The position numbers and the translations under genes were made by a program. Below the pieces are notes generated by a model. The model ran no database searches. It was not told the origin of the DNA and worked only from the letters and a program-made list of their open reading frames with translations. From the NCBI GenBank assembly GCA_001799195.1, contig MGSU01000248.1, positions 1 through 6,593 on the forward strand: 6,593 bases of DNA. Direction: 5' to 3'. Of the stretch, positions 1,854 through 6,085 are shown piece by piece. The first letter of the stretch is position 1. Each line of letters starts with the position of its first letter. The DNA comes from Deltaproteobacteria bacterium RIFOXYA12_FULL_61_11 (lineage in GTDB: Bacteria > Bdellovibrionota_F > JAHFAK01 > YA12-FULL-61-11).

Positions 1854-3116
1854 TCAGAACAGATGCGAAGGCGACATCCCCTGGTAGAGCGGCCGGGAAC
1901 GGCTGAGCTCTCGAACCTCCTCCCTCACGAGCGAGAGAGCCGCCTCGTCCTTTCGCTGGTGCACTGCGCGAGCAATCAGACCGGCGATGCGGCCCATGTC
2001 CGCCTCGTCGAAACCGCGCGTGGTAAGGGCAGGGGTTCCAAGCCGTATCCCACTGGTGACGAAGGGACTCTTCTCGTCGAAGGGAATCATGTTCTTGTTG
2101 ACCGTGATACCGACCTCGTCGAGCAGGGTTTCGACCTTCTTGCCGCTGAGACCGGTCGGACTCAGATCGACCAGCAGGAGATGGGAATCGGTGCCGCCGG
2201 TGAGCAGTGAGAACCCGTGTTCGAGCAACCCGGCGGCCAAGGCCTTGGCGTTGGCGAGGACCTGCTGCTGGTACGCGCGGAAATCCGGCTGCAACGCTTC
2301 TTGAAAAGCCACGGCCTTGGCGGCGATGACGTGCATCAAGGGCCCGCCCTGGATGCCGGGGAAGACCATGCTGTCGAGTTGCTTGCCGTGGGCCTCGCGG
2401 GCCAGGATCATACCTCCCCGGGGCCCACGCAAGGTCTTGTGGGTGGTCGAGGTGACAATGTCGCAGTACGGCACAGGATCCGGGAAGAGGTGTGCGGCGA
2501 TCAACCCCGCGGGGTGGGCGACATCGGCCATGAGCAGCGCGCCCACTTCATCGGCGATGGTCCGGAAAGCGGCGAAGTCGAGGGCTCGGGGATACGCGCT
2601 GAACCCGGCCACGAGCATCTTCGGACGATGCTCCAGCGCGAGCTCGCGGAGTCTATCGTAGTCGATCACGTGCGTATCGCGTCGTACTCCGTACGGCACA
2701 ACCTTGAAGAAGCGCCCCGAGAAATTCACCGGACTGCCATGGGTCAGATGTCCGCCCTGGGAAAGGTCCATGGAGAGAATGGTGTCCCCGGGTTGGAGGA
2801 AGGCATAGTAGGCTGCCATGTTGGCGCCCGACCCGGAATGCGGTTGGACATTGGCATAGGCAGCCCCGAACAGGGCCTTGGCCCTTGCTCTGGCTAACTC
2901 CTCGACCTGATCGACGCACTCGCATCCGCCATAGTATCGCTTGCCGGGATACCCCTCGGCGTACTTGTTGGTCAGGACGCTCCCGAGGGCCTGGAGCACT
3001 GCAACGCTGACGAAGTTCTCGGAAGCGATCAGCTCCAGCTTGTCCCGTTGGCGATTGATCTCCGCATCGATGGCCTGGAAAACCTCGGGATCGACCGTGG
3101 AAAGATCCTGGTACAT
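1854..3116 (-). CDS. glyA: Serine hydroxymethyltransferase
   Basis: This cytoplasmic PLP enzyme converts serine and tetrahydrofolate to glycine and 5,10-methylene-THF, the main one-carbon source for purines, thymidylate and methionine. Residues numbered from the upstream ATG at 3122: Tyr54, Glu56 and Tyr64 in [18 protein letters not shown]; His125 stacking on PLP; Asp200 and His203 in [11 protein letters not shown]; His228 and the Schiff-base Lys229 in [14 protein letters not shown]. The E. coli enzyme also uses Lys229. Length (420-422) is normal and the active site is intact. One unusual residue is Phe174 in AGFSAYPR, where Ala is common. Two starts compete. The ATG at 3122 overlaps the rpiB stop as ATGA but lies 1 nt from GGAGG. 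The ATG at 3116 has ideal 7-nt spacing and is preferred here (420 residues). It is the last gene of the operon and convergent with the zinc-ribbon gene. Confidence 0.97.
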
Positions 3117-3118
3117 CG

Positions 3119-3553
3119 TCATTCCTCCCTGTCGATACGCTCAAGCCGACGTTGGTGTCTGGCCCCCTCGAAGGGAGTCTCGAGCCAGGTGGTCAAGAGC
3201 TCGATGGCCAGGGCCTCGGCCACGAAATCCCCGCCGAGAACGAGTACGTTGGCATCATTGTGTTGGCGAGAGCGCTTGGCCGAGAGCACGTCATGGACCA
3301 ACGCCGCTCGTATGCCTTTCCACCGATTCGCGGCTATGCTCATGCCCAAACCCGAGCCACACACCAGGATTCCCCTGGTCCCAGGGGTTGCCACGACCGC
3401 TCGGGCAACGGCAGCGGCATACTGCGGATAATCGGCTGCTTCAGTGCCGGGGCAACCGAGGTCCTCGCAGAAAACCCCCTTGTGCAGGAGATGCTCATGC
3501 AAGGCACGTTTGAGTGGGAAACCGCGATGATCCGAACCGAGGAAAACCTTCAT
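3119..3553 (-). CDS. rpiB: Ribose-5-phosphate isomerase B
   Basis: This enzyme interconverts ribose 5-phosphate and ribulose 5-phosphate in the non-oxidative pentose phosphate pathway. The 144 residues match RpiB/LacAB-family length. Visible motifs: GSDHRGF at 6-12 (substrate binding, Asp8-His9), DYP at 41-43, the signature [17 protein letters not shown] (61-77) with catalytic Cys65 and the phosphate/anion loop Gly66-Gly70, and [11 protein letters not shown] with His98 for ring opening. RpiB rather than LacA/LacB is inferred from the metabolic neighbours and the Cys65/His98 pair. The start ATG overlaps the acpP stop as ATGA (3550-3553), so translation is probably coupled; the nearest Shine-Dalgarno-like sequence is a modest GAGGA about 9 nt upstream. 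The TGA stop at 3121-3119 overlaps the first possible glyA ATG in the same way. rpiB-glyA adjacency is common in Deltaproteobacteria, and this copy looks ordinary apart from Trp78 in [10 protein letters not shown]. Confidence 0.95.
3123..3130 (-). promoter_or_regulatory. Ribosome-binding site of glyA
   Basis: On the minus strand AGGGAGGA lies inside the last codons of rpiB. The GGAGG core ends 1 nt before the first ATG (3122) but 7 nt before the second (3116). The usual spacing of 5-9 nt favours 3116 for direct initiation. The first ATG would need reinitiation by ribosomes that terminate at the overlapping rpiB TGA. Confidence 0.75.
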
Positions 3554-3813
3554 GCCCGCTCATCCTCGTTCTCGCCCTTCTGGGCCCGGAGTTTATCCTC
3601 GAGGTAACGGATCACATCGTTGACCGTCTTGATGGCTTCCTGCTCGTCCTCGGGAACATCGATCCCGAATTCCTCTTCGATGGCCATGATCAACTCGACC
3701 ATGTCCAGGGAATCCGCTCCGAGTTCCTCGAGGGTCACCTCACGGGTGACCATTTCCTCGTCGACACTGAGCTGCTCCACGATGATGCTGGTGATGCGCT
3801 TCTCGATCGACAT
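3550..3813 (-). CDS. acpP: Acyl carrier protein
   Basis: This small acidic carrier holds growing acyl chains as thioesters on phosphopantetheine for type II fatty-acid synthesis and hands them to PlsX. The 87 residues begin MSIEKRITSIIVEQL. Ser35 in LGADSLDMVEL is the phosphopantetheine attachment site. The following IMAIEEEFGIDVPEDE is the acidic helix II that partner enzymes recognise. The C-terminus carries a charged tail ([14 protein letters not shown]) somewhat longer than usual. The frame is open further upstream to an ATG at 3939, but that extension is arginine-rich, overlaps plsX and is not ACP-like. A strong AGGAGGT 5 nt before the ATG at 3813 fixes the start. It begins 13 nt after the plsX stop and overlaps rpiB by 4 nt. 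A housekeeping role is expected. With no fab genes beside it, a specialised ACP is possible, but plsX adjacency and sequence favour AcpP. Confidence 0.95.
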   Translation of the reverse strand: MSIEKRITSIIVEQLSVDEEMVTREVTLEELGADSLDMVELIMAIEEEFGIDVPEDEQEAIKTVNDVIRYLEDKLRAQKGENEDERA

Positions 3814-3826: not shown

Positions 3827-4831
3827 TCAAGTCTCGTTCGGGTGGGATGCGGCCTTCCGTATTCTCGTCTGTGGCGCCCCCGGCACTGCTCTCTGTTCCA
3901 GCTCCAAGAGACGCGCAGCCTGGGCAATGGCCGCGGCAATCTCCCGAGCTCCGCTCACACCATGCGCGACCAGGCACAGACCTCTGACTCCCAAGAGCGG
4001 CGCTCCGCCGAACGCGCGATGGTCGAACCTCGCGAGTACCCGGCAGAGAGTAGCCTCATACTCGCTACTCCTCGGGTGCCGCCTCAGGTCTTCTTTCATG
4101 GCCAAGACGAAGGCATTTGTCAAACCCTCCATCGCCTTGAGCACCACGTTGCCGGTGAAACCATCGCACAGAACGACTTCGGCCCGCCCCTCGAACAGCT
4201 CATTGGCCTCAACAGCGCCGATGAAGCAGAGTTCATCACCGTGCTTCTCAAGGAGTGCAGCGGCTTTGCGCAAGGTCGGCGTTCCCTTGCCCTTCTCACT
4301 GCCATTGGAGAGGAGCGCGACACTCGGCCTCTCCACCTCGCGCAAACGCTGGAGGTACTCCCTGCCCAAGCGGGCAAAATCGAGGTAATGCACGGGCCGG
4401 CAGGTCGCGTTGGCCCCGACATCGAGGAGAACGCACGGCCCGGGGGTGCTCGGCAAGGGGACTGCGAAGGCCGGTCGGCGAATACCTCGTTGACAGCCCA
4501 AGGTCCGAACGGCGAGGGCGAGCACAACCCCCGAGTTCCCGGAAGAAATGAAAGCATCGATGGTCCCGGCAGCGAGATCGGCAAACCCGCGGTGCATGGC
4601 GGTGTTCCTTCTCCGGTGGGCTTCGCGCCAAGGACTTGCCTGCATGGTCACCCGTTCGGAGCAGGGTACGAAGACCAGTCCATCTCTGCCGACGACTCGC
4701 TGTTCGTCCGGGACGGGAACGTCCCCGTAAAGATGCAGGAAATAGCGATCAGAGAGGGCGGCTTCGCAGCCGGCAATCAAGACCGAGGGATCGCTCTCTC
4801 CGGACTGGACATCAACACCGATGCGTCGCAC
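3827..4831 (-). CDS. plsX: Phosphate acyltransferase PlsX
   Basis: PlsX makes acyl-phosphate from acyl-ACP and phosphate. PlsY then uses acyl-phosphate to acylate glycerol-3-phosphate, the first step of phospholipid synthesis. PlsX is a peripheral membrane enzyme. Family landmarks (numbered from the GTG at 4831, 334 residues): SSGNSG 96-101, LLDVGANATC 135-144, SNGSEKGKG 175-183, FIGAVEANELF 204-213, CDGFTGNVVLK 222-232, FGGAPLLGVRG 274-284 and AHG 289-291. The order and spacing are typical of PlsX. The N-terminus is unusual: the family motif DAMGGDxxP is replaced by DVQSGESDP (residues 7-15). The frame extends to a TTG at 4870 (347 residues) without a Shine-Dalgarno site. GTG at 4831, with AGAGGGG at proper spacing, gives the compact N-terminus expected for the family; GTG at 4834 is also possible. 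It lies 72 bp after the unknown gene and 13 nt before acpP, its substrate carrier. Confidence 0.92.
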   Translation of the reverse strand: MRRIGVDVQSGESDPSVLIAGCEAALSDRYFLHLYGDVPVPDEQRVVGRDGLVFVPCSERVTMQASPWREAHRRRNTAMHRGFADLAAGTIDAFISSGNSGVVLALAVRTLGCQRGIRRPAFAVPLPSTPGPCVLLDVGANATCRPVHYLDFARLGREYLQRLREVERPSVALLSNGSEKGKGTPTLRKAAALLEKHGDELCFIGAVEANELFEGRAEVVLCDGFTGNVVLKAMEGLTNAFVLAMKEDLRRHPRSSEYEATLCRVLARFDHRAFGGAPLLGVRGLCLVAHGVSGAREIAAAIAQAARLLELEQRAVPGAPQTRIRKAASHPNET

Positions 4832-4837
4832 CACGAT

Positions 4838-4844
4838 CCCCTCT
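4838..4844 (-). promoter_or_regulatory. Ribosome-binding site of plsX, supporting a GTG start
   Basis: AGAGGGG on the minus strand is followed by ATC and two consecutive GTG codons. The run of G ends 6 nt before the GTG at 4831 and 3 nt before the one at 4834. The farther GTG gives normal spacing and a PlsX-like N-terminus (MRRIGVDV). The alternative TTG at 4870 has only a CTTCTCGA-type sequence ahead of it, with no ribosome-binding site. Confidence 0.6.
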
Positions 4845-4903
4845 GGACAGGTTGGGATCTCATGGAGCAATCGAGAAGGGAAGTCAAACCTTCCAGGTGG
4901 TAC

Positions 4904-6025
4904 TCAGCTCTCCTGCGCATGTCCGAATTCGAACTGGTCGATCTTCACCCAGACCCGTTCGTAGACATCCCGATATCCGCGCTCGAGGTAGTAACCGGCG
5001 TAGTCCAACACCGCCTGGCGGGTATCCTCACCGAGCAAGATGCGTTGGATGTGCTTGTGCTCTTCGTGGAAGCGGATGAAGTAATCACCGTGCTTGAAGG
5101 CGGTGAAACAGAGGAAGAACGGCACCCTGAGTAGTCCCGAAGAGAAAAAGAAAAGTAGTATTTCCAACAACCTGCCATCATATTCCAGGGGGAAGGTGAG
5201 CATCTCCCGTACCCGTTTGATGAACTTCTCGCGCAGGCAGACCTCGAAATCGGTTTTGAACACGGTGAGGAAACGTTCTTGGTTCAGCCCGGCCTGTTCA
5301 TTGTAACGCTTCTGATACAGATAGAAGGGGAGGAGTTCGTCGAAATAGATCGGCAATTCGATGCGCCTGGCGAAGATAGCTTCAAGGACCTGGGCTTCGA
5401 GACGGAGAATCTCTCTATTGACCTGGCCCTCATTGTCCTTGGTGGTCCCGACGAGGCGTTCGAGCTCGGTGCCGGCTTCCGAAAAGAGGTCGGTGAAACT
5501 CAGCGGATCGTCTTGGATCGAGAGGGCATAGATCATTTCCAACAGGGGATTGTTGGCCGCATGATTCTTGAGGTGGTTGCGCCCCTTGAGGAAGAACAGG
5601 GCGAACCGAACGCTGCGTTTACGTTCGATGTCCAGGCACCGCTCGAGGTACTCCTGACTGAGCCGGATGCTGCGATTGTAGAACTCTTCGTCGGCGAGCA
5701 GGGCGATCACGGCGCTGCGGGACCCATCGATGTCCCCGCCATCCCGCAGGGCCAGGAGTATCTGGTTGACCGTGCCCCGGGAATTGGCGTCGAGTCGGCG
5801 CGGATCGAAACGCAAGGCGCGCAGGGAAGGATCGTGCTCGAGCAATTCGGAGAGGCGGTGCAAGCGTAGATCGAGCTGTTCGACGTTGTTGTCCTTGAGC
5901 AGAGTGATTATTTGCAGGAAATCGCGGACCTCTTCGTACTCCCCGTCGAACATCCCCGGCTGGGGGCGCTTGAAGGTTTCCTTCCATTCCTGCAGTTTTT
6001 TTTCCTCATCGGGCTGCGAGGACAT
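4904..6025 (-). CDS. Hypothetical protein, first gene of the plsX-acpP-rpiB-glyA operon
   Basis: I do not recognise the family of this 373-residue protein. It has no signal peptide, no metal-binding cysteine cluster and no Walker motif. The composition is highly charged and leucine-rich (for example LDLRLHRLSELLEHD, residues 51-65), so a mostly alpha-helical, cytoplasmic or peripheral-membrane protein is likely. One strongly hydrophobic stretch at about 286-310 (LLEILLFFFSSGLLRVPFFL followed by CFTAF), broken by Arg300, could be a buried helix, an amphipathic anchor or a single membrane segment. The C-terminal third is rich in aromatic residues (Tyr/Phe). The frame is open to an ATG at 6172, but GAGG 6 nt before the ATG at 6025, and a promoter lying between the two, set the start at 6025. 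The stop is 72 bp before plsX on the same strand. As promoter-proximal gene it may act in lipid or envelope homeostasis; this is inference from context only. Confidence 0.82.
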   Translation of the reverse strand: MSSQPDEEKKLQEWKETFKRPQPGMFDGEYEEVRDFLQIITLLKDNNVEQLDLRLHRLSELLEHDPSLRALRFDPRRLDANSRGTVNQILLALRDGGDIDGSRSAVIALLADEEFYNRSIRLSQEYLERCLDIERKRSVRFALFFLKGRNHLKNHAANNPLLEMIYALSIQDDPLSFTDLFSEAGTELERLVGTTKDNEGQVNREILRLEAQVLEAIFARRIELPIYFDELLPFYLYQKRYNEQAGLNQERFLTVFKTDFEVCLREKFIKRVREMLTFPLEYDGRLLEILLFFFSSGLLRVPFFLCFTAFKHGDYFIRFHEEHKHIQRILLGEDTRQAVLDYAGYYLERGYRDVYERVWVKIDQFEFGHAQES

Positions 6026-6035: not shown

Positions 6036-6048
6036 AGTATGCCATACT
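6036..6048. repeat. Perfect 13-bp palindrome (candidate operator) near the operon transcription start
   Basis: AGTATGCCATACT is a perfect inverted repeat: 6-bp arms AGTATG/CATACT around one central base. It lies between the predicted -10 element (6057-6062) and the ribosome-binding site of the unknown gene. It therefore falls just downstream of the expected transcription start, near 6050, a position typical of repressor operators. The arms are short and the loop is one base, so an RNA hairpin is unlikely. The cognate regulator is unknown. Confidence 0.5.
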
Positions 6049-6056
6049 CGGCCCGG

Positions 6057-6085
6057 AGCATACATATATGGCGTTGTGTTGTCAA
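6057..6085 (-). promoter_or_regulatory. Sigma-70-type promoter of the hypothetical-plsX-acpP-rpiB-glyA operon
   Basis: On the minus strand a perfect -35 TTGACA (6085-6080) is followed by a 17-bp spacer and TATGCT (6062-6057), which matches TATAAT at 4 of 6. The spacer is AT-rich (CATATATG), unlike the surrounding GC-rich DNA. Predicted start is near 6050, giving a leader of about 25 nt. No other promoter is evident before plsX, acpP, rpiB or glyA, so this probably drives all five genes. Confidence 0.65.

Follow-up and report, generated by a model that had tools for sequence, protein, structure and literature searches.

An orphan gene heads a plsX-acpP gene run and is paired with a degenerate PlsX

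The main interest of the locus described here is an orphan gene, designated X, that is paired with a degenerate PlsX. The window, that is, the whole stretch of DNA that was analysed, is the entire contig G000:C248 (6593 nt), from a genome of 4.64 Mb in 342 contigs that is 87% complete. Gene X (4904..6025, minus strand) encodes a 373-aa protein, with its start ATG at 6025-6023 and its stop TGA at 4906-4904, and is the first of five co-directional genes in the order X-plsX-acpP-rpiB-glyA, all of them on the minus strand. A previous sequence-only reading had claimed a 373-residue ORF at these positions, leading a phospholipid/ACP operon, and both points are borne out, with the addition of the strand, which that reading did not give.

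X is a genuine gene and not a chance ORF, as deduced from its codon-position GC content, its codon choice and the presence of an SD-like site. The GC content of the three codon positions (0.62/0.32/0.75) resembles that of the neighbouring genes. Likewise, the fit of its synonymous codons to six neighbouring genes is 0.236, versus -0.116 (sd 0.039) for composition-random codons encoding the same protein; the fit is thus around 9 sd above random, and the other five frames score lower. The SD-like sequence, GAGGTG, ends 4 nt before the ATG, and further upstream there is a promoter-like sequence, TTGACA-17-TATGCT (6057..6085, minus strand), with a match to sigma-70 sites. This had been called the only good promoter; it is indeed the sole sigma-70-like site of the window and falls in the correct intergenic gap and orientation for X, but finding one such match is not above chance, because shuffled sequences contain 1.0 +/- 1.2. 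No RNA family was matched in the window.

A repeat search also identified a 13-nt inverted repeat, AGTATGCCATACT (6036..6048), in the X leader between the promoter-like site and the SD, which is a possible operator or small hairpin and which, being short, may have a chance origin. This repeat bears on the idea that X is a regulator, sensing acyl-ACP or the state of the membrane and controlling either the activity of PlsX or the transcription of its own operon. Both the first-gene position of X and the location of the repeat ahead of its start codon would suit this role; however, neither Pfam nor NCBIfam reveals a domain in X for binding DNA or a ligand, and so short a repeat could be fortuitous, which makes a regulatory role quite unlikely in our opinion.

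Downstream of X there is a gap of 69 nt (4835..4903, minus strand), if plsX starts at the GTG at 4834, which is preceded by AGAGGGG and is the most likely start. The divergent plsX (3827..4834) is followed, after 13 nt, by acpP (3550..3813), for an acyl carrier protein (PF00550), and then by rpiB (3119..3553), for a ribose/galactose isomerase (PF02502), and glyA (1854..3122), for a serine hydroxymethyltransferase (PF00464), with 4-nt overlaps between acpP and rpiB and between rpiB and glyA. We saw no terminator-like or promoter-like site between X and plsX, and RNA structure in this gap was not above that of shuffles (z 0.25); it is thus likely, judging from the absence of such sites, that X is co-transcribed with plsX. 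The plus strand of the window contains two other genes. One of them (245-1405) codes for a histidine kinase in which a receiver domain at the N-terminus precedes HisKA and HATPase domains, an LvrB-like order; the product of the second (1395-1844), which overlaps the kinase gene, is 149 aa long, matches no family in Pfam or NCBIfam and carries an N-terminal motif of four cysteines that resembles a zinc ribbon (CSRC...CNTC).

Profile scans of X against Pfam, NCBIfam, PHROGs and PADLOC, as well as comparisons with the PDB sequence set, retrieved no significant match, in agreement with the sequence-only reading, which recognised no family. The best Pfam hit was to MbeD_MobD, with an E of 0.12 that is below the cut-off and was treated as chance. 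There was no Pfam match of X to YceD (DUF177, PF02620), to ribosomal protein L32 (PF01783) or to the PlsB/PlsC acyltransferases (PF01553), and none to PlsY (PF02660), for which several transmembrane segments would be expected versus the single hydrophobic segment of X. X has no paralogue in G000 and is absent from G001, which belongs to the same class, is 96% complete and is the sole other sampled genome of the phylum. A search of 386 genomes across bacteria yielded best hits with E of 0.02-0.09, which were short, some with stops, and were taken as chance; a second sample of 385 genomes, overlapping heavily with the first, contained none at 0.01, and there were none in plasmids, phages or viral contigs. 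A peptide-pattern scan of genome contigs gave no confirmed locus but was uninformative, since the same method also missed every PlsX. As far as can be seen, X thus appears to be lineage-restricted.

We then compared the gene order with that of 29 plsX loci, sampled from those genomes whose PlsX most resembles that of the window. The gene directly upstream of plsX was rpmF in 28 of these, supporting the earlier statement that yceD-rpmF usually occupy the position held here by X. Two genomes from another, distant phylum (G038 and G183) show the order yceD-rpmF-plsX-acpP-rpiB-glyA, and G001 contains yceD-rpmF-glyA, with no detectable plsX. Together, these arrangements suggest that the order without X is ancestral. 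In G000, yceD and rpmF are not beside plsX but on contig C77, where we identified both YceD (PF02620, 1.7e-20) and L32. On this contig (L046:2745-8515), yceD-rpmF precede a gene for a 1638-aa RHS-repeat protein. The simplest history, as we infer it, is that a split in this lineage detached yceD-rpmF from plsX-acpP-rpiB-glyA, and that X came to lead the latter block. The sequence-only reading had instead envisaged a conserved unknown beside plsX, and had named a lack of conservation of this adjacency in relatives as evidence against its proposal. X was found neither in G001 nor in several hundred genomes, within a phylum that is sampled by two genomes, one of them without plsX, and its adjacency to plsX was seen to be conserved in none of the relatives; by the criterion of that reading, this counts against a conserved unknown.

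These arrangements are consistent with X being a passenger, with a lineage-specific role unrelated to lipids, that reached the front of plsX when a rearrangement separated the two gene blocks; its hydrophobic stretch would then correspond to a buried helix or to some unrelated anchor. Reshuffling of the operon is evident, with yceD-rpmF lying among other genes and followed by the RHS gene in G000, and with yceD-rpmF-glyA lacking plsX in G001, and X is beside plsX nowhere else in the genomes searched. Newly joined genes commonly sit at operon heads, and the position of X fits this pattern. However, the codon use of X is well adapted, and the lack of a terminator before plsX makes it probable that X is co-expressed with the lipid genes; on the whole, we regard the arrival of X as a passenger as quite possible, although short of probable.

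The neighbouring PlsX is itself abnormal, which also argues against a passenger. It scores 219 bits against PF02504, with no other member of this family found in G000, and 216.2 bits against TIGR00182, under the equivalog cut-off of 243.4, whereas ten yardstick PlsX proteins score 311-386. It is off consensus at 11 of 61 near-invariant columns, versus 0-7 for the 29 others, a comparison that is approximate because the latter were counted by leave-one-out over 57-60 columns. The N-terminal motif DAMGGD is replaced by DVQSGE. Likewise, the stem tip spans 42 residues from LK to GGAP, versus 46 in most of the 29 relatives, and is polar (RRHPRSSEYEATLCRV); its best 9-mer hydrophobicity is 0.41, compared to 0.66-1.16 in all tabulated relatives except two. 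In Bacillus subtilis, this tip (residues 250-262) carries an amphipathic peptide needed for the membrane localisation of PlsX, and it is poorly conserved outside Bacillus (PMC6702220). The window PlsX has thus lost the hydrophobic stem tip that serves for membrane docking in Bacillus. The abnormal tip lends slight further support to the suggestion of the sequence-only reading that X could act on PlsX or ACP, either as a scaffold or as a regulator.

X is rich in leucine (14.5%), and its residues 289-307 (ILLFFFSSGLLRVPFFLCF; window positions around 5105-5161) are the best Kyte-Doolittle 19-mer, with a mean of 2.05. The octanol-scale sum of this segment is -14.1, versus +1.4 for the next best non-overlapping window, so that it stands alone, as had been claimed for a single hydrophobic stretch at about residues 286-310. 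The segment passes the hydropathy thresholds but also contains Arg, Pro and SSG; it may span a membrane. Single-sequence structure models consist mostly of helices, although their pLDDT values of 38.4 for the whole protein and 47.1 for residues 195-373 are too low to judge the fold; X is hence predicted to be mostly helical. Self-BLAST detected no internal repeats.

Our best mechanistic guess, which is tentative and on balance unlikely to be correct, is that X is a membrane-bound helical partner that tethers PlsX and ACP. X, as a lineage-restricted and mostly helical protein, would be produced from the PlsX/ACP transcript and would be anchored on the inner membrane via residues around 286-310, whereas its charged helical body would hold PlsX, and perhaps acyl-ACP, at the membrane. 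In this way, X could replace the amphipathic tip missing from the window PlsX, and acyl-phosphate would be made at the membrane. The position of X at the head of five co-directional genes, with plsX preceded by neither a terminator nor a promoter-like site of its own, the very hydrophobic 19-mer, and the short and polar tip of a PlsX whose B. subtilis counterpart needs it for localisation, all point in this direction. Conversely, the hydrophobic stretch of X could be a buried helix, and the poor conservation of the tip outside Bacillus also counts against the tether. Furthermore, in two other genomes (L016 and L030) the PlsX tips are also shortened and less hydrophobic, with rpmF upstream and no X, indicating that tip loss does not need X. 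A passenger X is at least as likely as a tether; we put forward the tether as the best mechanistic explanation because a passenger names no mechanism, and not because the evidence favours it. The broader idea that a deep-branching lineage, in connection with the loss of the PlsX tip, handed membrane docking over to a separate helical protein of the membrane, undescribed so far and encoded by the leading gene of the operon, seems improbable.

PlsY, the user of the acyl-phosphate made by PlsX, is a small polytopic membrane protein. PF02660 detects no PlsY in G000 or G001, although it does in G038, G183 and eight control genomes, and X adjoins plsX, which raises the question of whether X stands in for PlsY. 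X, nevertheless, matches no family and has no more than one hydrophobic segment; additionally, PlsY may have escaped detection in G000 simply because the assembly lacks 13% of the genome, and this genome also contains eight PF01553 acyltransferases, two of them with strong matches to the YihG family. We therefore consider it very improbable that X is a substitute for PlsY. For its part, G001 contains no detectable PlsX, PlsY or PF01553 acyltransferase and may lack, or may have replaced, the usual enzymes of glycerolipid acylation. A long ORF at L060:1336-3366 begins with an acyltransferase domain and ends in a stretch that resembles alpha/beta-hydrolases.

For the recruitment of PlsX to the membrane outside Bacillus, a natural PlsX without the tip, apparently co-transcribed with a protein that contains a strong hydrophobic segment, offers a simple test case. 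Should X be no more than a passenger, the locus would still record the rearrangement of an operon, as well as a little-known phylum whose set of glycerolipid enzymes is unusual.

In all, the locus combines features of known systems with others of its own. As in the yceD (DUF177)-rpmF-plsX-fab/acpP operon, there is an occupied slot before plsX, and plsX and then acpP follow downstream, with the exact order plsX-acpP-rpiB-glyA found after yceD-rpmF in G038 and G183; unlike it, the window has X in place of yceD-rpmF, and fabH and fabD are absent from the run. The window PlsX aligns over nearly its full length with known PlsX proteins (TIGR00182, PF02504; PDB 6a1k, 1vi1 and 1u7n), with 8e-43 to 1vi1, but differs from them in its score under the TIGR00182 cut-off, in having DVQSGE for DAMGGD and in its degenerate tip. 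Finally, the docking peptide of B. subtilis PlsX (PMC6702220) is a model for the job proposed for X, although it is a short loop within PlsX, and not a separate protein, and is unrelated to X in sequence.
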